DNA from: a virus
Reading direction: 5' to 3' (one strand)
DNA length: 32,509 nt
Virus record (IMG/VR): IMGVR_UViG_3300027763_000159
Span: 1 to 32,509 of that record
In this document: positions 7,481-22,249 of the stretch, piece by piece
Layout: each line of letters opens with the position of its first letter
Position numbering within the stretch: the first letter of the stretch is position 1
Made by a program: the position numbers and the translations under genes
Notes under the pieces: model-generated
Databases searched by the model: none
What the model saw: only the letters and a program-made list of their open reading frames with translations
Told to the model about the DNA's origin: nothing

Positions 7481-9189
7481 GCAATCCTCGAAAAGTTTTG
7501 GTGTTTTTCAAATTTAACAACACTTCGGAATTTATCAAATAATAAATCACCTTTGTGACTAATAACAAATACATTGGTTTCATCTCCTAATGTATTCAAT
7601 AGGTTCATAACATAATCTGTACCGTTTGAATCTAAAGATGAATCGAATACTTCATCCAACAACAAAAGATTTGTGCTGGCGCTATTCTTCATCTTTGCAA
7701 TCGTTCTCCATGTGAATAACAATGCCAGGTCAATACGTTGTTTCTCGCCCTCACTAAAAGAGGCATAAGAAAACTCATCGCGATGTCTAGACTTTATAAC
7801 TTCATTAAAAGATTCATCCAATTCAAAATGGCAAAAGAAATCCATTGCCGACAAATACTTATTTACTAATTTATTTATAACAGGTAAATATTGTTTAATA
7901 ATTTTTGTCTTAATTCCGGTATCTTTTAGTAATACGTTTGCGATATCTAAATAGTGTTTTTCTTTAGTATATTCGCCTTTCTTTTCCGTAAGAGCAACTG
8001 CTTCTTTCGCCATGCTCTTTAGTTTTGTTTTTTCCTCAGAAATATTACCAATATTACTAGAAGTATCTATAATTTCTTTTTGCAGCTTGCGTATATAATT
8101 TTGTCCAGCAATAATTTGATTGTTTTGCTTAATAGATTCGGTATTTAATTCTGCAATTTGCTTTTTAACTTTTTCAATTTCATTAAGGCGATTTTCTATA
8201 GCAGATGATTGAGTTTCCATTTCTGTTAGAGCGGCTTCAATATCCACAATCTTTTTATTGTGAGATTCCATATGAGAAGTTTTTAAATCTTCTGATAGTG
8301 TTTGGCTGCAAGTGGGGCAATTATCGTGATTACTATAAAAATCAATTTCCTGCCTGGCACTATTAATTTTTTGTATTAGCTTTTTATTGATATCAATTAG
8401 CTTAGTCTTTTTATTGGAGTATTCAGTTTCATCGGAAATAGTATCTTCTAAATTCTTAATAGATTCTGCAATAACTGTTAAACCTTGCTCTATCGTATTG
8501 ATTTCTGTAGTAGCAGTTTCTATTAAAGCATTTACCTCAGTTATCTTTTTATTCTTATCGTTTTCAAGAGTTTTAATATATTCTTGTTGCATTTTAATAC
8601 GCATTTTTTCCATCTCGAGCCGGGTATCAATATCCGTGATGTTGGTTTTATTTTCAAGAATTTTATTTTTAAGAACCCCATTCATAATAGAAAATATTTG
8701 AATGTCTAAAATATCTTCAATAATTTCTCTTCGATGTCCCAAAGGTAATTGCATAAACGGAGTAAACGATGCGGACCCCAGAATAACAATCTGAGTAAAA
8801 GATTTATAGTTTAATTTTAAAATACTATCTTCAAGATACTTTTGATAGTCCTTAGATGCAGCATCTTGATTTAGTAATTGATCATTAGAATAGATTTCAA
8901 AAATACCAGGTTTGATTCCCCGTATAACTTTATATTCTTTTTTACCAATTGAAAATATTACTTGTACTTCCAAATTTTTACTATTAATAGTATTCATAAG
9001 CTGTGGCTTATTAACATTCCTAAAAGGTTTGTTAAAAAGAACAAAACAAATGGCATCTAGAATCGTACTTTTACCTGCGCCATTTTCCCCGATAACTAAA
9101 GTGGTTGTAGATTTATCAAGCAATACTTCGGTGTATTGATTTCCTGTAGATAGGAAATTTTTCCATTTAATACTTTTGAATTTTATCAT
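7477..9189 (-). CDS. 46: gp46: Rad50/SbcC-like recombination endonuclease subunit
   Basis: The 570-aa SMC-type ATPase is close in length to T4 gp46. It has Walker A GENGAGKS at 34-41, a long coiled-coil region with a zinc-hook CPTC at 291-294, the ABC signature FSEGEKQRIDLALLF and Walker B LLLLDEVFDSSLD near the C-terminus. With gp47 it forms the Mre11/Rad50-type complex that processes DNA ends for recombination-dependent replication and degrades host DNA in T4. Its ATG overlaps the TGA of gp47, giving coupled translation and matched amounts of the two subunits. A TATAAATA string inside the gene at 7872-7879 is probably chance. Confidence 0.95.
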   Translation of the reverse strand: MIKFKSIKWKNFLSTGNQYTEVLLDKSTTTLVIGENGAGKSTILDAICFVLFNKPFRNVNKPQLMNTINSKNLEVQVIFSIGKKEYKVIRGIKPGIFEIYSNDQLLNQDAASKDYQKYLEDSILKLNYKSFTQIVILGSASFTPFMQLPLGHRREIIEDILDIQIFSIMNGVLKNKILENKTNITDIDTRLEMEKMRIKMQQEYIKTLENDKNKKITEVNALIETATTEINTIEQGLTVIAESIKNLEDTISDETEYSNKKTKLIDINKKLIQKINSARQEIDFYSNHDNCPTCSQTLSEDLKTSHMESHNKKIVDIEAALTEMETQSSAIENRLNEIEKVKKQIAELNTESIKQNNQIIAGQNYIRKLQKEIIDTSSNIGNISEEKTKLKSMAKEAVALTEKKGEYTKEKHYLDIANVLLKDTGIKTKIIKQYLPVINKLVNKYLSAMDFFCHFELDESFNEVIKSRHRDEFSYASFSEGEKQRIDLALLFTWRTIAKMKNSASTNLLLLDEVFDSSLDSNGTDYVMNLLNTLGDETNVFVISHKGDLLFDKFRSVVKFEKHQNFSRIA

Positions 9190-10247
9190 AGTTCTTCAGA
9201 ATGCTGCGCTTCAACATATAATGTTTTTAATATTCCTTTAAGCTTTTCTTTGTCAACATCGGTTTCAATACTCTCAACATAACTAGATAGCATAGTCATT
9301 GTATCTTCAAACTCATAAGTTTCGTCTATGGCTTCGGTTTCGAATTCTGAAAAGTCTTCTATGATTTTTAATTCTAATGGATTTACTTTATAAATTCGTT
9401 CGACTAATCTATCAAACTGAGCAAAGTCTGTTTTATTTACTACAATCAATTTAACTTGAGCACCTGCAAGTTCAGAAACATCATACCCATCATAATGAAA
9501 CATACTATTTTCTTTATCATCATAACTAATTTTATGAAACAATGTATATGGATTTTTAATAAATTCTAAATCAAGTGTTTTAGTATCCAGTATATGAAAT
9601 CCCCTATCATCACCATAGTCGCCCCAGAATAAATGATATGGATTACCTAAATAGTGTACATTTGATTTACTACTCTTGTGATGGAAATGCCCGGAACCTA
9701 CAAACTTAAATTTCTTAAATATTGAAGGATCCATGCCATCATGATTTTCCTGTCCTTTAAACATAGAAAATCCTGATAATTCGAGATGGCCTAAACAAAT
9801 ATCGGCAGGAGATTTTTCCATCTCGTCCATAGTATCTTTATAATTGTCAGCACAAATCCAAGGCACAACAAATACAGGAACGTCTAACGTAATAGTTTGC
9901 GGCGTATCTAAAACATGAATATTATTATACTCATGTAATAACAAATCTAACGAATTTACTAAGTTAGTATTTTTGTAATATGTATCATGATTGCCCGCCA
10001 TCATATAACAAGTAATATTCTCTTCAATTAATTTACTGAAAAAATATTCTTTACATGATTTTAGTGTTTGATAGTTAATATATTTTCTTCTATCAAACAC
10101 ATCTCCTAAATGAATAACGTGATCAATTTTTCTTTTCTTTAATTCGGGAAAAAATATAGTATCATAGAATTTTTTAAAGTATTGATCAAATGCAATTGAA
10201 TCTGATCTAGCACCAAAATGCGTATCAGTTATTAAAGCAACTTTCAT
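9186..10247 (-). CDS. 47: gp47: Mre11/SbcD-like nuclease subunit
   Basis: The 353-aa metallophosphoesterase is similar in size to T4 gp47. The metal-binding motifs appear in order: DTHFG (D8, H10), GDVFD (48-52), GNHD (85-88), LGHLELSG (about 165-175) and SGHFHHKS (about 200). It is the nuclease partner of gp46, encoded by the overlapping downstream gene. The acidic C-terminal part after residue 290 is probably the gp46-binding region. The start ATG at 10247 follows ATAGGA. Recombination and replication role by family. Confidence 0.95.
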   Translation of the reverse strand: MKVALITDTHFGARSDSIAFDQYFKKFYDTIFFPELKKRKIDHVIHLGDVFDRRKYINYQTLKSCKEYFFSKLIEENITCYMMAGNHDTYYKNTNLVNSLDLLLHEYNNIHVLDTPQTITLDVPVFVVPWICADNYKDTMDEMEKSPADICLGHLELSGFSMFKGQENHDGMDPSIFKKFKFVGSGHFHHKSSKSNVHYLGNPYHLFWGDYGDDRGFHILDTKTLDLEFIKNPYTLFHKISYDDKENSMFHYDGYDVSELAGAQVKLIVVNKTDFAQFDRLVERIYKVNPLELKIIEDFSEFETEAIDETYEFEDTMTMLSSYVESIETDVDKEKLKGILKTLYVEAQHSEEL

Positions 10248-10436: not shown

Positions 10437-11000
10437 TTATCCTTCGTAAATTGCAGAGTTTGAACCATGCTCAAAAACTTCTACACTCTTAATTCTCACC
10501 GAAGGATTAATAGGATATCTACCTTCTCTAGGTCCACCTTCTTTTAGGTTTTCCAATATTCTTTGCATAGCATAAAATGCCATCTTAGCAAACATCTCAC
10601 AACCGACACCTTCAACAATACGCAGATCGCATAAAGAACCTCTTTGATATGGTTCAAAATTATTTCTTTCGGCTATCATTTCGCCCGGTGTTGCTTCAGG
10701 CAAAGTCCAATCGGTATCAATTAATGCCATTTGCTTAAAGAATTCAAGGTGAGGATCATCTTCAGCAATAATCAATGTGTGGTCAAACATATGATCTGCC
10801 CATGCCTTAAATTGCTTCAATCCCCCGAAATCCATACACCAGTTTTTATCGTCTAACGTATCGCATTCAAAAATAAGTTTTATACCGATAGAATAACCAT
10901 GCAATGTGGAACAATGCGAATGATTTGCTTTCCATTGTCTAAAACAACAAGAAAGTCCTCTGTCGTTACCATAAGTTTTTGTTGAGTAAAATTTTGCCAT
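10437..11000 (-). CDS. queD: QueD-like 6-carboxytetrahydropterin synthase (PTPS fold)
   Basis: The 187-aa protein belongs to the 6-pyruvoyl/6-carboxy-tetrahydropterin synthase fold. Family enzymes turn the FolE product into 6-carboxytetrahydropterin, the QueE substrate. The C-x3-H-G motif is present as C30-STL-H34-G, giving the catalytic Cys; an MDFGGLK segment, a FDHTLI segment and a C-terminal VEVFEHGSNSAIY with the ligand-binding Glu follow. The zinc motif is altered: HGY rather than HGH, so one usual zinc His is Tyr36. It is longer than E. coli QueD (about 120 aa), mostly from an insert around residues 85-125. SD AGGGG is seven bases upstream. Together with folE and queE in the same block it supports synthesis of 7-carboxy-7-deazaguanine. 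Confidence 0.82.
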   Translation of the reverse strand: MAKFYSTKTYGNDRGLSCCFRQWKANHSHCSTLHGYSIGIKLIFECDTLDDKNWCMDFGGLKQFKAWADHMFDHTLIIAEDDPHLEFFKQMALIDTDWTLPEATPGEMIAERNNFEPYQRGSLCDLRIVEGVGCEMFAKMAFYAMQRILENLKEGGPREGRYPINPSVRIKSVEVFEHGSNSAIYEG

Positions 11001-11077: not shown

Positions 11078-12043
11078 TTATTTATTATAATTTCTGCTCT
11101 CGTACCAGACAGCTAAAGATTTTATAATATCGTAAAATACTCTCTTAGGTGTAAATCCTAATGAATACAATTTATCCGGATTCGCTATAAGCGTTGCCGG
11201 ATCGCCTTCTCGTCGAGGTTCAAAAGTTGTTACTAATTTTTTATTAAGATATTTTTCGACCATTGTCTGTACTTCTAAATTAGACCAACCGCTACCCGAT
11301 CCAATATTATATATACCTTCCATATTATTGTCAATAGCCATAATATGTGCGTCTGCAATATCTTGAACGTGAATATAATCTCTTATGCAGGTACCATCTC
11401 TTGTATCATAATCAACACCGTAAATTGAGAACATCCCATCTGGCGTATTAGCACATTCAAACAATTTAGCAAGGATATGAGTAGCATTTTTTTCTTGCCC
11501 ATGTAAACCTTCTTCATCTGCTCCGCAAGCGTTAAAATACCTAAATGCGACAAATTTTATACCATATGCTTTATTATAGGCAGAAAGCATCCTTTCAACC
11601 ATCATCTTACTATCACCGTAAGGAGAGATAGGATCCGTAGGATGCGTTTCTGTTAAGGGGCCTTTAGGAATTCCATATACTGCAGCACTGCTACTAAAAA
11701 TAAATTTGGTATGCTTAGAGCAATTTTTAATTACGTTTAGATAATTATGGGTATTTTCAACATTATTGAAGAAATACATACTAGGGCTTTTTAAACTTGG
11801 ACCAACTAAACTTGTTCCAGCACAATGAACAATCGCATCAATATTATGTTCTGAAAGTAATCTATATGATCTAGTACTTGCAAAATTGTCTTTTAGAAAA
11901 ATATCATAATAAGGCATTAGATGTTCTTTTTCTCGAATATCCACACCAATTACAAAATATCCCTTTTTCTTTAGTTCGATACAAATTTGGCCACCGATAT
12001 AACCAGCAGCACCTGTTACAATAATCTTTTTAGTATTTTGCAT
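11078..12043 (-). CDS. galE: GalE-like NAD-dependent sugar epimerase
   Basis: This extended short-chain dehydrogenase is 321 aa from the ATG at 12043, which is preceded by AGAGG. It has the NAD-binding GAAGYIGG at the N-terminus, an FSSSAAVYG active-site segment, YGDSK (YxxxK), RYFNACGAD and CIRDYIHVQDIADAH, all typical of UDP-glucose/UDP-glucuronate 4-epimerases. The length is close to GalE (about 335). It overlaps the 3' end of the preceding glycosyltransferase by 14 bases, which argues that it supplies that enzyme's UDP-sugar donor. Substrate (glucose, GlcNAc or uronic form) cannot be read. Its position inside the dpdA run, between two PTPS-fold genes, is unusual. Confidence 0.9.
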   Translation of the reverse strand: MQNTKKIIVTGAAGYIGGQICIELKKKGYFVIGVDIREKEHLMPYYDIFLKDNFASTRSYRLLSEHNIDAIVHCAGTSLVGPSLKSPSMYFFNNVENTHNYLNVIKNCSKHTKFIFSSSAAVYGIPKGPLTETHPTDPISPYGDSKMMVERMLSAYNKAYGIKFVAFRYFNACGADEEGLHGQEKNATHILAKLFECANTPDGMFSIYGVDYDTRDGTCIRDYIHVQDIADAHIMAIDNNMEGIYNIGSGSGWSNLEVQTMVEKYLNKKLVTTFEPRREGDPATLIANPDKLYSLGFTPKRVFYDIIKSLAVWYESRNYNK

Positions 12044-13205
12044 AAGAAACCTCTTGTCTATAGGTGTTATCATTTCTATCCCATTTAAAAGAATCGGGAT
12101 CGTTAGTCATAATATCTATACAACGGTCAATGGTTGAACTTGTCCAATCTGATAATTTACCCATATTAGCATTAGGTAAATCTAATAGAGATTCTAATTT
12201 TTCCAAAGCATCAGACATAGACCAAGGTATATACAAACATTTATGATCATTTGCAAATGTCTCAGGGAAAGAACGATATGCAGGATATAGACAATTTGTT
12301 CCCAGAGCATCTGCTTCGGATGCAGTATTACTTACCCAATCTTGTAAAGCGCAATTAAATAGAACTTTAGAATTTGCAAGAATTTCGTAATATTCATTCT
12401 TTTTTAAGTTTTCATAGATTACTAATTTGCCGTCAGCCTGCATTAGTCTTGCTCTTGCCACAGTGGAAGAATCATTAGATTTTAAATCTCCTCCAGATAG
12501 AACAGCAAATTCTACATCAGAATTAATTTTTTGATATTCTTCAATTAAGTCCATAAAGAAATGCGGTTGCTTTTCTTGATCAAATCTTGCAGCAAATACT
12601 ACTCGATCTTTTCTATCTTCCCATTTTGGAATAACAGATACTCTAGATTGTACTTCTTCTTTATCAAAAGCCAATCCAGAAATATTATAGATGTGTGCAT
12701 TATCCCAGCCGGCAATTTTCATATGGGCAACCATTTCTTCATTGGTAGCCAATACAGATGCCCAAGGAATAACCATTTCTTCATATTTACGCATCCAACC
12801 TTGCATACCCCAGACATGCAGAAAGTCATCTGGGTCAATAGTCTGAGCAAGACAACGAACATAGACATGAGGACGATTTTCATATCCACACTGATCCATA
12901 ATATATGGCAAAGACTCAATGCCAGGAGTAAACATATCCTCAAAGAAAATAACATCGTTACTCGTAATTTCACCTTGTTTCATTTTCTTAACAAGTGCGG
13001 CCATCTGAGTCAACGAATAATAACTACGACCATGGGCATCTAGTACTTGACCAGTGACAATAGCTTTACTGTTATCTAGCAATTCTCCATGAATAACCTC
13101 ATAGTTAATACCTCTGCGTTGGAATGCCTTTTCAGACCATTGTTGCAATTGCAAAGTATATCTACCTTCGTATGGTTCTAAGCCCATATAAAATAGTTTT
13201 CTCAT
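12030..13205 (-). CDS. GT-B glycosyltransferase in the dpdA operon
   Basis: The 391-aa protein begins MRKLFYMGLEPYEGRYT. The C-terminal Rossmann domain opens with RVVFAARFDQEKQPHFF (about 201-217), the usual GT4 pattern (xxxVGRxxxxK), and a donor-site block ALQDWVSNTASEADALGTN spans about 286-304, where a Glu-containing helix contacts the nucleotide sugar. The N-terminal half includes DVIFFEDMFTPGIESLPYI. I recall related proteins in other phage genomes, sometimes annotated only as glycosyltransferase. The ATG overlaps the TGA of the PTPS-like gene and the 3' end overlaps galE, so it is translated as part of the dpdA block. Acceptor unknown; modified DNA base is a hypothesis. Confidence 0.82.
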   Translation of the reverse strand: MRKLFYMGLEPYEGRYTLQLQQWSEKAFQRRGINYEVIHGELLDNSKAIVTGQVLDAHGRSYYSLTQMAALVKKMKQGEITSNDVIFFEDMFTPGIESLPYIMDQCGYENRPHVYVRCLAQTIDPDDFLHVWGMQGWMRKYEEMVIPWASVLATNEEMVAHMKIAGWDNAHIYNISGLAFDKEEVQSRVSVIPKWEDRKDRVVFAARFDQEKQPHFFMDLIEEYQKINSDVEFAVLSGGDLKSNDSSTVARARLMQADGKLVIYENLKKNEYYEILANSKVLFNCALQDWVSNTASEADALGTNCLYPAYRSFPETFANDHKCLYIPWSMSDALEKLESLLDLPNANMGKLSDWTSSTIDRCIDIMTNDPDSFKWDRNDNTYRQEVSYAKY

Positions 13206-13591
13206 TTCATATTTTCCTCAAAACGAACAGGTGCAGTATATTGCAGGATCGCACCGTTTTCATCATCTTCATAAACCTTAACAACCATGTCTCGATTTGG
13301 ATACTTTTCAGAAATATATTTAATCAATTCTTCTGCCAACATCTCACAAGACATAAAGTCGATATTCAAAGTATTGTTACCATACAATGCCTCAAGCTCT
13401 CGCTTAAACAAGATGAATTCCACATCACGATCATTATGAAATACTTCTAACGATACTTTAAAATGAAAAATATGTCTATGAGGATAACCCAAGAATTCAA
13501 CTTCTTTTAGTTTCGGATCAGTAAGGGCCGCAGGGTACTTATGAATACCCTCTTTTTGAAATGTAACTTCAATTAATCTTTTAGTAATCAT
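13202..13591 (-). CDS. PTPS-fold protein lacking the catalytic Cys, partner of DpdA-like gene
   Basis: The 129-aa protein has the size and motif order of QueD/PTPS proteins: H17 near the N-terminus, HRH at 38-40 as the His-x-His zinc pair, a DVEFILFKREL strand-helix, CEMLAEEL at the PTxE position and EDDENGA at the C-terminus. The zinc triad seems complete, but no Cys lies four residues before HRH, where family enzymes carry the catalytic nucleophile. So it may bind a pterin or a deazapurine without doing QueD chemistry. The ATG overlaps the TGA of the dpdA-like gene, so the two are coupled. It may be a DpdA accessory factor or a variant enzyme. Confidence 0.7.
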   Translation of the reverse strand: MITKRLIEVTFQKEGIHKYPAALTDPKLKEVEFLGYPHRHIFHFKVSLEVFHNDRDVEFILFKRELEALYGNNTLNIDFMSCEMLAEELIKYISEKYPNRDMVVKVYEDDENGAILQYTAPVRFEENMK

Positions 13592-14871
13592 GCGAATAAA
13601 TCCTCAAGTGAAACAGGTGGTGCATGGTTTACGGGTTCGGATTCCATAAACTTTCCTACATGCTTTTCCCAATATAAAAAGTCATCAATATTTTTTACTT
13701 CGAATAATGTAGCATATTCATTTTCGCATTTTTTATCTCGACAAAAACGCAAGAATGCTTCTTTATTCGACATTAGAGATTCTACATCTCTGGTAAAATT
13801 ATGCACGTTAGTTAAGATGAAGCCCAATCTAGCTTGCATAATGTCTATAAATTTTCCACCATCTTCAATATACTGACCAACAGAAATATTCATAAGTTTA
13901 TGGAAATCTTTTGCTGTAAATTCTGTACCGCAAACCGTATTAATTTCTTCAACAACATTATTGTAGATGTTTGAGAATGGGCGCCCCATCTTTACAGATG
14001 ATCCGCCGTATCCATTTTTAGTTTTCTTACTATAAGAGAAATAAAACAAACCGTTATCTAAAGACATAGAATGAGTTGTAGAGTCATACGAGATTGCAAT
14101 GTCTTTATAAATGCCGGTCTGAGAAAATAGCAAGTAAGGAAGCATACGCCGAAGAGCGCCTACTCCCAGAACGTGTAAATGAAATGGTCTTTCGAAGGGT
14201 AATAGATTTACATAGAATGCACGTTTAACGTCTTCTAATTGACCCATACCCAATGCAGCAGATCCCATAGCGACTCCGCCGATTTTATCTTTTAAGTCGC
14301 CAACCTCATCTAGGATATAGTTTGCCCAGTCGCAGTATGTGTTATGATCAGCACCGTGGATAATAACGAAAGGGCGACAATTGCTGCCAAGCTCAACATA
14401 TCTTTCAATTTGAGATCGGGCGTTTTTGCCGGTTTGTCTTGCATAGTTTTCAAAATTATCCTTATCAAAGTATCTTTGTCTTGTATCTATCTTGGAACTG
14501 GTTCCGCTTGAATTTGTTGTCTTTACAGGAATCTCATCAAAAGACATACCAATGTCTGCATATGTTGCCTGATTGGTAAAAACTTTATCTCGTATCTCTG
14601 GGGAATTAGGAAGTCCGCGAGTAATAATCTGTAATCCGCCAGAGTCAGCATGGATGTTCTTAACTACAGGGCGATACTTTTGCAGTTTCTCTCCAAAATT
14701 CTTTTCCGTAAATCCATTATACAATAAAGAAAATTCATGACTGTTTTTATTATGTACAGTTCTGTCTATCATACTCTTAATCATATCAAGAGTTTCTGGC
14801 TCGTTACATTGCTCAGAGCCAAGGCGCAGATATGCTGGGCCAGAAATAACATATTCTAAAGTACGGTTCAT
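13588..14871 (-). CDS. dpdA: DpdA-like DNA 7-deazaguanine transglycosylase (TGT superfamily)
   Basis: The 427-aa protein shows the tRNA-guanine transglycosylase barrel motifs: HADSGGLQI (D76, compare DSGGFQ), MSFDEIP (D112), GGVAMGS (198-204, compare GGLAVGE), HLHVLGVGALRRMLPYL (about 231-247) and SYDSTTHSM with D263 at the nucleophile position. The C-x-C-x2-C zinc motif of tRNA enzymes is not visible. DpdA family members exchange guanine in DNA for a 7-deazaguanine made by FolE, QueD and QueE, all encoded nearby, so DNA rather than tRNA is the likely substrate. It overlaps its neighbours at both ends (ATGA), and a near-consensus promoter lies 90 bases upstream inside the preceding gene. Modified DNA would resist host restriction. 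Confidence 0.87.
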   Translation of the reverse strand: MNRTLEYVISGPAYLRLGSEQCNEPETLDMIKSMIDRTVHNKNSHEFSLLYNGFTEKNFGEKLQKYRPVVKNIHADSGGLQIITRGLPNSPEIRDKVFTNQATYADIGMSFDEIPVKTTNSSGTSSKIDTRQRYFDKDNFENYARQTGKNARSQIERYVELGSNCRPFVIIHGADHNTYCDWANYILDEVGDLKDKIGGVAMGSAALGMGQLEDVKRAFYVNLLPFERPFHLHVLGVGALRRMLPYLLFSQTGIYKDIAISYDSTTHSMSLDNGLFYFSYSKKTKNGYGGSSVKMGRPFSNIYNNVVEEINTVCGTEFTAKDFHKLMNISVGQYIEDGGKFIDIMQARLGFILTNVHNFTRDVESLMSNKEAFLRFCRDKKCENEYATLFEVKNIDDFLYWEKHVGKFMESEPVNHAPPVSLEDLFA

Positions 14872-16232
14872 ATAAACAAATTTTCCAAATTATTATCTTC
14901 GTTTTCTACAGGTTTGAAATCCGGGTCTTTAGATAGATAGGAGTTCTCATTAGTATAAATTATATTATACTTATGCTTGTTTGTCAATACAGATTTGACA
15001 TCATCTATAGCAACAGTTGTCCTTTTTAAGTCTTGTATAAACTGAGTATACTTAACAGTATCATAATCATTAATCTTAGCAGCATCAGATTTTGAAGATG
15101 CCGAAGGTTTAAAATTACTCAAGAAATCAGACCATTGCTTTGCAGTATTATCATCTAAATCTTTAACATATTGTGATGCGCCAAAATCATACCATTTCTT
15201 GGGTGTAATTTTATAAGCTGTCCTTACTGCATCTGCTGCTTCATCTAAAGGAACTCTAGCATAGTATTTAGAATCAAAATTGGTTACCCATTCTGATTTA
15301 TCTATAACTACACAAGGCATATTGCCGAGACATTCAAAGAATGTAAACGGATAGTTTTCTCGCAATGAAGGATTAAAATGAACTCTTGCAGATTGAATAA
15401 ATTTTACTTTTTCTTCACCTACGATACTTGCTTTAATTTCGTAGTTTTCAATCTTTAGTTCTGCTAACCTAGCTTCAAATTTTCTTTTGCCGTTGGCATT
15501 GGTCATAATTTTTGCAGGTAAATTTGTTTCTTTAATTACCTTCAAAAATGCTTCTGGATTTTTACGATCTTCCCATCTACCGATATACAAGACTCCCTCG
15601 CGAGAATCATCAAAATTATAATCTAATAATTTTCTTTCAGACATAGGCATGCTTAGACGCATAACATTTGTACCACCATTCTTTTCAATCTCAATCTTAT
15701 TTCTAATTGATTGTGTACCTACAAATGCATTATCTAAGCGCATCATATTATTGAAGAATTCGTTACAACTCTCAACAAAGACACCTTTAAATTTTCTGGT
15801 ATCTCGGAATACCATACTCTCTTCGTGAGTATAAAATACAACAGGAATATATTTTGCAAGGTCAAAGGATAACGCCGCGGGCATACTGTCTGGGGAATTA
15901 CAAACAATCATATCATAGATATTTGTAGTAAATGCCTGCATTATAGCATTTCTAAAATTTAGCATCTTCTCAAAATTCATCGTGTCAGAAAATGCAAATG
16001 TTCCGGTATGATTTTTATAAGATAGACATTCCTTAGGGGAAATTATATTGGCACCGAGCGACTCTACCAATTTAGAAAAATCATTAGTGGCAGGTTTATC
16101 GAGAATAATATCGACTTTCCAACCTAGTGTGTTGGACATCTCGACAAACCCTTTAGCAAATTGCCCAATGCCGCCATGCGGCACTAGGTGTTGATCACTA
16201 ATGCAAAAAGCAATTCTTTTGCTAAAGTACAT
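14868..16232 (-). CDS. GT4-type GT-B glycosyltransferase upstream of dpdA
   Basis: The 454-aa protein has an N-terminal GGIGQFAKG loop (20-28) for acceptor/donor contact, a second Rossmann domain starting VLYIGRWEDRKNPEAFLKV (about 214-232), and the GT4 EX7E motif at E292 to E300 in RENYPFTFFECLGNMPC. This is a retaining GT-B enzyme by family. The last ~75 residues form a charged, less conserved-looking extension. The start ATG at 16232 follows GGGG and lies three bases after the exonuclease stop; the stop overlaps the dpdA start. It may glycosylate a surface structure or the 7-deazaguanine placed by DpdA; only the operon position supports the latter. Confidence 0.82.
   Translation of the reverse strand: MYFSKRIAFCISDQHLVPHGGIGQFAKGFVEMSNTLGWKVDIILDKPATNDFSKLVESLGANIISPKECLSYKNHTGTFAFSDTMNFEKMLNFRNAIMQAFTTNIYDMIVCNSPDSMPAALSFDLAKYIPVVFYTHEESMVFRDTRKFKGVFVESCNEFFNNMMRLDNAFVGTQSIRNKIEIEKNGGTNVMRLSMPMSERKLLDYNFDDSREGVLYIGRWEDRKNPEAFLKVIKETNLPAKIMTNANGKRKFEARLAELKIENYEIKASIVGEEKVKFIQSARVHFNPSLRENYPFTFFECLGNMPCVVIDKSEWVTNFDSKYYARVPLDEAADAVRTAYKITPKKWYDFGASQYVKDLDDNTAKQWSDFLSNFKPSASSKSDAAKINDYDTVKYTQFIQDLKRTTVAIDDVKSVLTNKHKYNIIYTNENSYLSKDPDFKPVENEDNNLENLFI
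14959..14987 (-). promoter_or_regulatory. Consensus sigma70-type promoter inside the glycosyltransferase 3' end, ahead of dpdA
   Basis: Minus strand: TTGACA (14982-14987), 17-base spacer, TATAAT (14959-14964). Both boxes are exact. It lies about 90 bases before the dpdA-like ATG at 14871, within coding sequence, and would allow dpdA, the PTPS-like gene and the following glycosyltransferase to be expressed without the upstream genes. Confidence 0.78.
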
Positions 16233-16235
16233 AAA

Positions 16236-16742
16236 TTACCCCATAATTTTAATCAAATGCTTAGTTTGATACATAGCATCATCTAAAGCATTGTGGTATG
16301 TTCCTTCTCGACTATCAGCATCGATCCAATGTAGCATATTCTTCATTGTTCTATAGCAACGATCATCCCAGAACTTCCAGGGGCGAACTTTACCAATAGC
16401 AAGATATGCGTTTTCTAAAACAACATTATCGAAACCTGCACCATTACCCCAAGTAGGTAGACTCTTTTTACCATACCATTCAGAAAACTTAGTTAAAGCT
16501 TCTTCCAAAGAAATATTATTTTTAGTAAGTTCTTTTAGTGCTTCTTTATTTTGTTCTGACCACCATTGCACGGTATCTTTAGAAATGTGTAGTCCGGCTT
16601 CTTTACACGATTTGAGATCTATGGTGCAGTAAAACGTATCAAGAATTTGATCGTTTTCAAATTTTACCGCACCGATAGAACAAATCGCAGCATTTGATCT
16701 TGTAGACATTGTCTCCAAGTCGATCATAATATTGACTGTCAT
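16236..16742 (-). CDS. DEDDh 3'-5' exonuclease (RNase T/Rv2179c-like)
   Basis: The 168-aa single-domain exonuclease carries the four acidic residues and His of the DEDDh class: D8 and E10 in MIDLETMST, D105 in GAGFDN, and H150/D155 in HNALDDA. The sequence MIDLETMSTRSNAAICSIGAV resembles the Rv2179c-like (DUF5051) 3' exoribonuclease group and T4 DexA-type phage exonucleases. It overlaps the folE stop by one base (TAATG). It may degrade RNA or single-stranded DNA; its position between folE and the dpdA block is probably operon packing, though nucleotide supply or trimming of DNA ends during modification cannot be excluded. Confidence 0.85.
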   Translation of the reverse strand: MTVNIMIDLETMSTRSNAAICSIGAVKFENDQILDTFYCTIDLKSCKEAGLHISKDTVQWWSEQNKEALKELTKNNISLEEALTKFSEWYGKKSLPTWGNGAGFDNVVLENAYLAIGKVRPWKFWDDRCYRTMKNMLHWIDADSREGTYHNALDDAMYQTKHLIKIMG

Positions 16743-17422
16743 TATTTTTTACCCATTCTCGCAATACTTAAAAATTCATTTCTAGCAGCAGGATCAGATT
16801 TAAATCCTCCACCCAATCTAACAGTTACTGTAGAACTTCCGGTATCTTCAACACCTCGGCTCTTAACACAATAATGTTGAGCATCAATCATAACAGCAAC
16901 ATCTTCAGTATCCAGAATAAACTGTAATGTATGAAAAATTTGTTCTGTTAGACGTTCCTGAATTTGCGGACGCTTACTAAAATATTCTACAATACGATTA
17001 ATTTTAGAAAGGCCCAATACTTTATCTTTAGGAACATAAGCAACGGTTGCGAGTCCATCAATAACTACAAAATGGTGTTCGCAGTTGCTTTGTACGTTGA
17101 TATTACGCTCACACACCATTTCGTTATACTGCATTTTATTATTTACAGTAGTACATTTTGGAAATGCTTCATAGTCTAAACCCCAGAAGATTTCGTTTAC
17201 ATACATTTTTGCAACTCGTTTAGGAGTTTCATTAAGCGAATCATCACTTAAATCTAAACCCAATACTTGCATAATATGAGAAAACGATTTTTCAATTTCT
17301 GCAATTTTATCTTTTCGATCCATAATCAAAGAAAATGTAGGAGTCTCAACTCCCATCTTTACTAGATGTTGATGTACTTGTTCACCCAATACAGGGTCGG
17401 TTTTTGTTTTATTATATGACAT
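16742..17422 (-). CDS. folE: GTP cyclohydrolase I
   Basis: The 226-aa enzyme converts GTP to dihydroneopterin triphosphate, the first step to 7-deazaguanines and folate. Zinc ligands are C114 and H117 in CEHHF and C185 in HYCVKSRG; the active-site block KINRIVEYFSKRPQIQERL and the STVTVRLGG C-terminus are typical. Length equals bacterial FolE (about 222 aa), so it is intact. AAGGAAGGA precedes the ATG at 17422, and a T4-late TATAAATA box lies 61 bases upstream of the ATG. With queE, queD and a dpdA-like gene in the same block, it most likely feeds DNA-base synthesis rather than folate. Confidence 0.96.
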   Translation of the reverse strand: MSYNKTKTDPVLGEQVHQHLVKMGVETPTFSLIMDRKDKIAEIEKSFSHIMQVLGLDLSDDSLNETPKRVAKMYVNEIFWGLDYEAFPKCTTVNNKMQYNEMVCERNINVQSNCEHHFVVIDGLATVAYVPKDKVLGLSKINRIVEYFSKRPQIQERLTEQIFHTLQFILDTEDVAVMIDAQHYCVKSRGVEDTGSSTVTVRLGGGFKSDPAARNEFLSIARMGKK

Positions 17423-17493: not shown

Positions 17494-18345
17494 TTAAGTT
17501 CCCCAAGCATTCTTGAAAAGAGGAATTTGAAGACGATCTGAATATCGGTATCCCTTAGCCATTGCCAATTCTGCGACACGGCGATTATTTAGATAATACG
17601 TTTGTTCTGTACCACCAACCGGCATTAAATAAACAGGACCTGAGAATCCAGCTTGTCTATATTGTTGTACAGCTTTTTCTGCTTCTTTAACATCATCCTC
17701 AGTTGCAACAACAAACTTGAGGTATGTATAACCGACAGATTGATATTCTACTATAATATCAGGGCATATTGCTTCTTCCCAAGATTCACCCGAAACAGAT
17801 AGTTTAGGAGATACGGAGAATGTTAAATTACTATAATCTCTGCCGAAGCGAGTAAATTCTTCAAAAAGATATGAATAGAACTCTTCAGTTAATGGCTGCG
17901 TGCCATTTGTTTCAAATGTAAGTTCTGTTAGTTTGTTTTTATTGCGAGGATCTTCTAATAGATCGGGAAACCCCCGCTGCCAACCGAGTAAAGGTTCGCC
18001 TCCCGTAATAACGAGATGCGCGTCTCCCCAATCATTGTTCGGTAACATTTCGATAATAGCATCCGTAATGGCCACAGTATCAAGAACGGGACTAAGATGC
18101 TTAAACCTAACATCCCAACTAGCATATGAATCACATCCAGTATGGACAAGCGGTAACTGATTATAGCTAGTATAGTTTTCTGCAACAACTTTAAAACGCT
18201 CATCGCTCTTTTCTCCTGGAGGCATTCCAAAGCCACCGCATGTAAAATTACACCCAAAGGTTCTAAGGAATACCGAAGGTACGCCCATATAACGACCCTC
18301 ACCCTGAATTGAATAGAACAATTCAGCAATTTTTAGTTTACTCAT
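17494..18345 (-). CDS. queE: 7-carboxy-7-deazaguanine synthase (radical SAM)
   Basis: The 283-aa radical-SAM enzyme makes 7-carboxy-7-deazaguanine (CDG) from 6-carboxytetrahydropterin. QGEG at 14-17, FLRTFGCNFTC (C32, C36), TGGEPLL (114-120) and FETNGT match QueE. The iron-sulfur motif is stretched: the third Cys is C71 in TGCDSY, giving C-x3-C-x34-C rather than C-x3-C-x2-C. Expanded cluster loops occur in some QueE groups, so activity is still likely. GAGG precedes the ATG at 18345. A sigma70-type promoter in the end of gp55 drives it, making queE the likely first gene of the deazaguanine block. Confidence 0.93.
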   Translation of the reverse strand: MSKLKIAELFYSIQGEGRYMGVPSVFLRTFGCNFTCGGFGMPPGEKSDERFKVVAENYTSYNQLPLVHTGCDSYASWDVRFKHLSPVLDTVAITDAIIEMLPNNDWGDAHLVITGGEPLLGWQRGFPDLLEDPRNKNKLTELTFETNGTQPLTEEFYSYLFEEFTRFGRDYSNLTFSVSPKLSVSGESWEEAICPDIIVEYQSVGYTYLKFVVATEDDVKEAEKAVQQYRQAGFSGPVYLMPVGGTEQTYYLNNRRVAELAMAKGYRYSDRLQIPLFKNAWGT

Positions 18346-21358: not shown

Positions 21359-22249
21359 TTATCTAATTTGAATAATTTGCGAAGGGTTGCCCTGGAAATT
21401 GAACGAACCGTAGTGGTTTAGAGAGATCGAAGGATCAAGCCAGATTTCTCCGCCCATATCTTGCCAACGACGACTAAAACAATAGTCCTCAGATAAGTAA
21501 CGCTTATCCTTAGGATCAATCATTGTGTCGAAGAACGCATAAAAATGAGGATTCAACTCTGGAGGAGTATTCAAATCATTGTTATATTTAAGTTCGGGAT
21601 ATTGTACAATCATACGATCAATAACATCGCGCTTAATCATCATGAAACCTGTAGCACCATCGTGCAATCTAATTAGACCATTTTCAATTGCGATCTGTCT
21701 TTCTTCTCGGTTGGAGAATTTAAAGTTGATTGCGTAATCGGAACCAAACGATGCAATTTGTCCATCATTCAATGGAGCATCTGCATCAAGAATGCCCTGC
21801 TTAATACGTTGCCAATTAACACCCTTTTTAGGATATGCTCCTACTGCAACATCTTTGTCATGTGCAATAAGTTTAATAACGTCCTCAACCTGATATTCAA
21901 TATCTGCATCAATAAACATTAGACGAGAAAAGTTACTGTGCAAGAAATATGCAACAAGAACGTTACGAGCACGAGTAACAAGAGACTCGTTAGCAATTGT
22001 ACCAAACGCCACAGGAATTTGATGTTGGTTACAGAAAGTCAAAAGCTTCACTGTAGAGCGAAAGTATGCTTCTGTTAGCATACCACCGTAACATGGTGTA
22101 GCAATAAAGATACTTTCTTTTCTAAGTTTGTCTAAGCTAACTTCCATTTTTCTAGGTTCCAGCGCAGATGAAGCTGCAGAAGATGCTGCTGCCGAAATTG
22201 CAGCTTTAGGAACCGGAGGAAGATCAAGAGGGGAAAATGTATTTGTCAT
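21359..22249 (-). CDS. GT-A (GT2-like) glycosyltransferase between capsid module and uvsY
   Basis: The 296-aa protein has a GT-A fold pattern: IFIATPCYGGMLTE at 47-60, FIDADIEYQ with the metal-binding D114-A-D116, TGFMMIKRDVID, and a C-terminal SEDYCFSRRWQDMGGEIWLDP block with the acidic residues of the acceptor site. The first 35 residues are Pro/Ala/Ser-rich (AAASSAASSAL) and probably disordered. GGAG precedes the ATG. Similar enzymes sit near gp23 and uvsY in other T4-like phages, to my recollection. Donor and acceptor unknown; decoration of virion proteins is one possibility given the position. Confidence 0.82.
   Translation of the reverse strand: MTNTFSPLDLPPVPKAAISAAASSAASSALEPRKMEVSLDKLRKESIFIATPCYGGMLTEAYFRSTVKLLTFCNQHQIPVAFGTIANESLVTRARNVLVAYFLHSNFSRLMFIDADIEYQVEDVIKLIAHDKDVAVGAYPKKGVNWQRIKQGILDADAPLNDGQIASFGSDYAINFKFSNREERQIAIENGLIRLHDGATGFMMIKRDVIDRMIVQYPELKYNNDLNTPPELNPHFYAFFDTMIDPKDKRYLSEDYCFSRRWQDMGGEIWLDPSISLNHYGSFNFQGNPSQIIQIR

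Follow-up and report, generated by a model that had tools for sequence, protein, structure and literature searches.

A phage gene cassette tying glycosyltransferases to DNA base exchange suggests sugar-decorated 7-deazaguanine in phage DNA

In order to understand the role of sugar-related genes in a phage DNA modification cluster, we analyzed the virus record IMGVR_UViG_3300027763_000159 from IMG/VR over its whole length, a 32.5 kb (32,509 nt) genome fragment referred to here as the window, in which a DpdA-type DNA base-exchange gene is embedded among glycosyltransferase (GT) genes. The window encodes structural and replication proteins of the T4-like type, almost exclusively on the minus strand (the T4-like names were read from the translations). 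Five core open reading frames (ORFs) are present on the minus strand from 16232 to 11078: a GT4-like glycosyltransferase (14868..16232), DpdA (13588..14871), a QueD-fold protein of 129 residues termed T129 (13202..13591), a GT-B-fold glycosyltransferase of the retaining type termed GTB (12030..13205), and the UDP-glucose 4-epimerase GalE (11078..12073). The three junctions GT4/DpdA, DpdA/T129, and T129/GTB overlap by 4 bases each and GTB/GalE by 44 bases. In the direction of transcription, the order is QueE, FolE, an RNase T-like exonuclease, GT4, DpdA, T129, GTB, GalE, and QueD, all on the same strand, with 71 bases between QueE and FolE, an overlap of 1 base between FolE and the exonuclease, 3 bases between the exonuclease and GT4, and 77 bases between GalE and QueD. 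This order is not due to chance, because it recurs in dozens of contigs. Simple promoter matches within the run numbered 61 compared to 49.7 in shuffled sequences (standard deviation 7.6), which is no clear excess. A preliminary description of this DNA had named the five overlapping genes with QueE and FolE upstream and QueD downstream, and its coordinates and gene calls agree with the ORFs, overlaps, and family matches.

The DpdA protein of the window (427 residues) is of the DpdA2 type. It matches DpdA2 of Vibrio phage nt-1 (YP_008125322) in blastp (34.8% over 276 aa, E 4e-53) and in hhalign with a probability of 100%, and PHROG 10773 is common to both proteins. The nt-1 DpdA2 corresponds to ORF390 of that phage; an assignment of nt-1 ORF157 as the counterpart of a KVP40 match was wrong. 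Two aspartates of the tRNA-guanine transglycosylase type, the general acid D76 (DSGGLQ) and the nucleophile D263 (ISYDSTTH), are invariant in the window DpdA family, and the Tgt model TIGR00430 matches the window protein below its cut-off (E 3e-5). Judged from its sequence, the enzyme is thus predicted to insert 7-deazaguanine into DNA. DpdA2 has been reported together with low levels of dPreQ0, dADG, and dG+ in nt-1 DNA (Hutinet et al. 2019, PMC6884629). A second DpdA-like family of about 500-540 residues with the motifs DSGGFQ and YDAASPF was found in loci L143 (6797-8290), L134 (6297-7841), and L223 (5233-6855). Pfam, PHROGs, and NCBIfam gave no match to this unrelated-looking family, which shares the two Asp motifs with DpdA2 and can be aligned to it over the core of the transglycosylase (hhalign 80%, E 1.4e-5). 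Profiles of DpdA, T129, and GTB gave nothing useful in sequence searches of the PDB.

The genes for 7-deazaguanine supply flank the core. FolE (GTP cyclohydrolase I, 16742..17422) matches PF01227 at 1.2e-61, and the radical-SAM 7-carboxy-7-deazaguanine synthase QueE (17494..18345) matches the NCBIfam QueE models at 3e-13, below cut-off, and occupies the same position in relatives. The 6-carboxytetrahydropterin synthase QueD (10437..11000; PF01242 at 1.5e-13, TIGR03367 at 1.3e-8, below cut-off) is canonical and distinct from T129. A separate gene of this 6-pyruvoyltetrahydropterin synthase (PTPS) family was present in 21 of 21 cassette or T129-bearing records examined (20 over cut-off), while QueC exceeded its cut-off in one of them; the window itself is a fragment and could lack QueC by incompleteness. 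Since most cassette phages lack QueC, their pathway appears to stop at 7-carboxy-7-deazaguanine, and the modified base is likely a carboxy- or decarboxy-7-deazaguanine rather than a preQ0-derived one. QueF was not found in the cassette phages; weak QueF matches at or beside FolE genes did not reach the cut-off and were dismissed as cross-matches between T-fold proteins.

T129 matched neither Pfam nor NCBIfam. Its AlphaFold2 model (pLDDT 90.7) has E. coli QueD (4ntk) as the best Foldseek match (E 2.5e-5, probability 1.00, TM 0.63/0.68), and the zinc-binding histidine triad H17, H38, and H40 as well as E83 and E108 are invariant in 20 sequences and align to the E. coli QueD motifs. The catalytic cysteine before HGH is absent from every T129 sequence aligned, and the Asp-His pair is not conserved. 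With the cysteine lost and a separate QueD/PTPS gene present, T129 was ruled out as the QueD of the pathway. The family occurs in 26-27 of 50,697 phage records. Among these, T129 lacks a neighboring GT in Rhizobium I1_18, Aeromonas Ahp1, Vibrio D479, and Cellulophaga phiST, where it is accompanied by small proteins that look DpdA-like on reading; its step on 7-carboxy-7-deazaguanine therefore looks independent of the sugar step. Based on its modelled fold, T129 is probably a QueD-derived candidate enzyme tailoring 7-carboxy-7-deazaguanine. Cui et al. reportedly gave the name DpdL to a predicted 7-carboxy-7-deazaguanine decarboxylase in 2023. T129, which is QueD-like and encoded with FolE, QueD, and QueE and without QueC, could be DpdL. 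In Vibrio phage Bakedbeans, a protein of 383 residues (gp176, L227 8212-9363) has T129 as its C-terminal domain.

Both glycosyltransferases had weak Pfam GT-family matches at the sequence level. The GT4-like protein matched PF00534 weakly and, outside Pfam, the WlaC GT4 structure (E 0.0014). The AlphaFold2 model of GTB (pLDDT 82.9) was matched by many GT-B enzymes in Foldseek, with BshA first (7e-12) and the T4 alpha-glucosyltransferase bound to DNA in twelfth place (1.5e-10); according to this model, GTB is a GT-B-fold enzyme. R207, K212, and E297 do not vary, also when a member of 27% identity is included, and the first position of the EX7E motif is D in the main GTB type and E in PA5oct. 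The preliminary description had pictured two transferases acting alongside base exchange. GTB is indeed a constant cassette member, whereas the slot upstream, which separates the exonuclease from DpdA, differs among relatives and holds a GT4 of either of two subclades, a protein of 300 residues that reads as GT-A-like (L007-L009, L011 at 9102-10004, L012, and L073), or no GT (L078). The 300-residue protein had no match in Pfam, PHROGs, or NCBIfam. This combination of a constant and a variable enzyme suggests that GTB adds a core sugar and the GT4-slot enzyme an optional second one. In a contig of a third lineage, a 2OG-Fe(II) oxygenase gene lies between T129 and GTB (L182 1492-2181), whose product could make a hydroxyl handle for a sugar.

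GalE of the window exceeds the equivalog cut-off of TIGR01179 (290.2 bits, cut-off 262.3), as does its homolog in L143. GalE is adjacent to GTB in 62 of the 84 loci of the main GTB type and in none of the four with the divergent type (22-25%); the 22 main-type loci without an adjacent GalE belong mostly to lineages with a GalE-like gene elsewhere in the locus. That GTB type and GalE vary together fits a role in donor supply, and GalE likely provides the sugar donor.

Our interpretation draws on the linkage of GTB to the base-exchange genes. IMG/VR was scanned with DpdA, GTB, and GT4 queries, all cassette genes were mapped, and GTB loci flanked by 4 kb or more of sequence were counted. T129 and a DpdA were found near all 56 distinct GTB loci and FolE near 53 of them, and FolE and QueE accompanied all 51 distinct GT4 loci. 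The DpdA was DpdA2 in 38 of the GTB loci and belonged to the ~500-residue family in 18. These 18 loci, with a different DpdA family and another gene order, imply that the GTB-T129 pair was kept through a swap of the exchange enzyme. The DpdA query contributed some of the 56 loci, and those with the ~500-residue DpdA were found through the GTB or GT4 queries. A GTB scan of 84,980 prokaryote species genomes (GTDB) returned four contigs, all of which carry the DpdA-T129-GTB cassette. Among the 50,697 phage records, GTB-family matches were found in Synechococcus BUCT-ZZ01, Acidovorax ACP17, Xanthomonas X1, Sinorhizobium Phosso, and eleven PA5oct-like records. All of these encode T129, and DpdA adjoins except in Phosso, where T129, GT, FolE, and QueE lie together and a DpdA-like gene is located elsewhere in the genome. 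ACP17, X1, and the PA5oct-type phages have a related cassette without GT4. Four Xanthomonas/Erwinia records are an exception to the GTB-T129 linkage, with a 24% partial match in a different gene cluster; T129 thus occurs in five of the six phage-record lineages with GTB-family matches. Hypergeometric figures for this co-occurrence take no account of relatedness and convey an order of magnitude only. The preliminary description had proposed a search for co-occurrence of the transferases with dpdA, and had held that homologs lying mostly away from dpdA would speak against its idea. GTB proved always to be found with dpdA and T129, also in phages without a nucleotide-sugar epimerase. The glycosyltransferases belong to the base-exchange system.

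In Pseudomonas phage PA5oct and in ten records resembling it, the corresponding row (L223 5233-9618) encodes a DpdA-like protein (540 aa), a GT, T129, a short epimerase-like protein, and a phosphoribosyltransferase; its genes are mostly annotated as hypothetical. Phosphoribosyltransferases lie near the cassette in 18 of the 56 loci (for example L143 14492-15043, L134 15029-15583, L002 8748-9209, and L223 9184-9618) and perhaps salvage the guanine released by base exchange. A small family of 132-178 aa was found near the cassette in 15 of the 56 GTB loci and in ACP17 (L143 8504-9040, L003 11477-11875). The RNase T-like 3'-5' exonuclease between FolE and GT4 (16236..16742; PF16473, 1e-49) had gone unmentioned in the preliminary description, and its homolog in BUCT-ZZ01 sits at the other end of the cassette. 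Xanthomonas phage PhiXhv-16 encodes a distant GTB relative beside an L-glutamine-D-fructose-6-phosphate aminotransferase and a GlcNAc-malate deacetylase-like gene (L236 5735-8969), possibly another sugar-linked modification cluster. The gene psbA was not found among the window's relatives.

Taken together, these gene contents suggest the following pathway. FolE, QueD, and QueE would turn GTP into 7-carboxy-7-deazaguanine, which is the established chemistry of these families. T129 may then alter this compound, most likely by decarboxylation, as its fold and the gene content indicate. DpdA2, judged from its family, would swap guanine in replicated phage DNA for the modified base. The linkage data point to GTB as the enzyme that would move a sugar from UDP-glucose or UDP-galactose, supplied by GalE, onto the inserted 7-deazaguanine, and to the GT4-slot enzyme as one that may add a second or alternative sugar. 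The glycosylated base would shield the phage DNA from host nucleases.

The cassette is best explained as a variant of phage 7-deazaguanine DNA modification. It shares the FolE-QueD-QueE supply and an nt-1-homologous DpdA2 with the DpdA/DpdA2 systems of nt-1, CAjan, and 9g (PMC6884629), but differs from them in that neither QueC, an amidotransferase, nor QueF was found and that it contains an extra QueD-fold protein, one to two GTs, and GalE. It resembles the alpha- and beta-glucosylation of 5-hydroxymethylcytosine in T4 in that a GT-B transferase, with the T4 alpha-glucosyltransferase among its Foldseek matches, is predicted to add sugar to a modified base after replication. In contrast to T4, the predicted acceptor is a deazapurine and not a pyrimidine, several cassette phages lack a gene of the dCMP-hydroxymethylase family, and GTB scores higher against BshA-type GT4 enzymes than against the T4 enzyme. 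Sugars on a 7-deazaguanine in nucleic acid are found in the mannosyl- and galactosyl-queuosine of animal tRNA, where one of the enzymes is GT4-like. There, the modified nucleic acid is RNA and the sugar sits on a cyclopentene side chain that the cassette genes could not make.

Different roles of the transferases have to be weighed against this. Surface-glycan loci commonly hold GalE and GT4 enzymes, so that the transferases and GalE might build a surface glycan or decorate a virion glycoprotein and share no more than transcription with the 7-deazaguanine genes. The window does contain a second overlapping sugar run on the minus strand (1-2494), encoding a HIRTGD-motif protein like GT11 fucosyltransferases, a GDP-mannose 4,6-dehydratase (GMD; TIGR01472, 549 bits), and a GT2-like protein that is truncated; in relatives, several NAD-sugar enzymes are encoded, and GMD lies about 12 kb from dpdA with a second epimerase after it. 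Yet GTB was never away from dpdA and T129 in the studied loci and is nearly absent from cellular genomes, the GT of ACP17, X1, and Phosso is retained within or beside the deazaguanine genes in genomes without any PF01370 epimerase, and the linkage outlasts changes of DpdA family and genome context. We therefore regard a surface-glycan role as improbable. A separate GT-A-like gene (weak Anp1 match, 21359-22249, minus strand) stands beside capsid-side genes, apart from the cassette, and is conserved in nearly all relatives of the window lineage with enough flank.

The precedent of T4 and the T4 enzyme among the structural matches of GTB would also fit transferases acting on 5-hydroxymethyl-C or -U, with 7-deazaguanine made independently. 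Genes of the thymidylate-synthase/dCMP-hydroxymethylase family PF00303 occur in PA5oct, Phosso, and three other contigs, with lineages 2-3 among the carriers, but no match was found in BUCT-ZZ01, ACP17, X1, or the window-lineage contigs G001-G006 (the window itself covers only a fragment of its genome), and GTB is linked to deazaguanine genes; this makes such an acceptor very improbable. Slightly less remote, though still unlikely, is that the target of GTB is the free 7-deazaguanine base or its nucleotide, or a product other than DNA, for instance queuosine in host tRNA. BshA, SenB, and LmbT, as most GTB-like structures, use small acceptors, and GT4-type transferases that mannosylate tRNA queuosine are known; against this, a DNA-type DpdA is constantly present with GTB and the cassette phages have no detectable QueF.

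We thus consider it probable that the cassette directs DNA hypermodification, with a sugar attached to 7-deazaguanine in DNA as the best reading. This judgment draws on gene identities, folds, conserved donor-site residues, cross-lineage linkage, and the absence of competing pathways. The preliminary description had proposed further glycosylation of the inserted 7-deazaguanine; the tie of GTB to dpdA and T129 supports this, while we infer the sugar chemistry itself, including the identity of the sugar, the attachment atom, and the order of the steps (glycosylation before or after insertion). Several points weigh against a DNA-borne sugar. The weakest point is the attachment site, since decarboxylation by T129 would remove the classical exocyclic handle for a sugar at carbon 7. 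The GT-B structural matches are silent on the acceptor, and BshA outscores the T4 enzyme; linkage indicates joint use and does not prove that the acceptor is the base. In addition, the 56 GTB loci were drawn from similarity-limited searches, some of them DpdA-started, and relatives of the window carry the GDP-mannose dehydratase sugar genes ~12 kb away. A decarboxylated 7-deazaguanine with a ring-bonded sugar, such as a carbon-7 C-glycoside to which the variable second sugar is added, is a speculative form of the product to which we give a small but real chance. We know of no described glycosylated purine base of this ring-bonded kind in DNA.

To our knowledge, the sugar-decorated DNA bases described so far are pyrimidines, and the known phage 7-deazaguanines carry only small groups. 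Our literature search turned up neither a description of glycosylated 7-deazaguanine from phage DNA nor a DNA modification study of PA5oct. If our interpretation is true, a glycosylated purine analogue would be added to the chemistry of DNA. This would also explain uncharacterized genes of several phage groups and provide a new substrate for studies of defence and counter-defence. Cassette phages that infect PAO1, including PA5oct, Paride, Ettore, and others, make this chemistry testable in standard laboratories.

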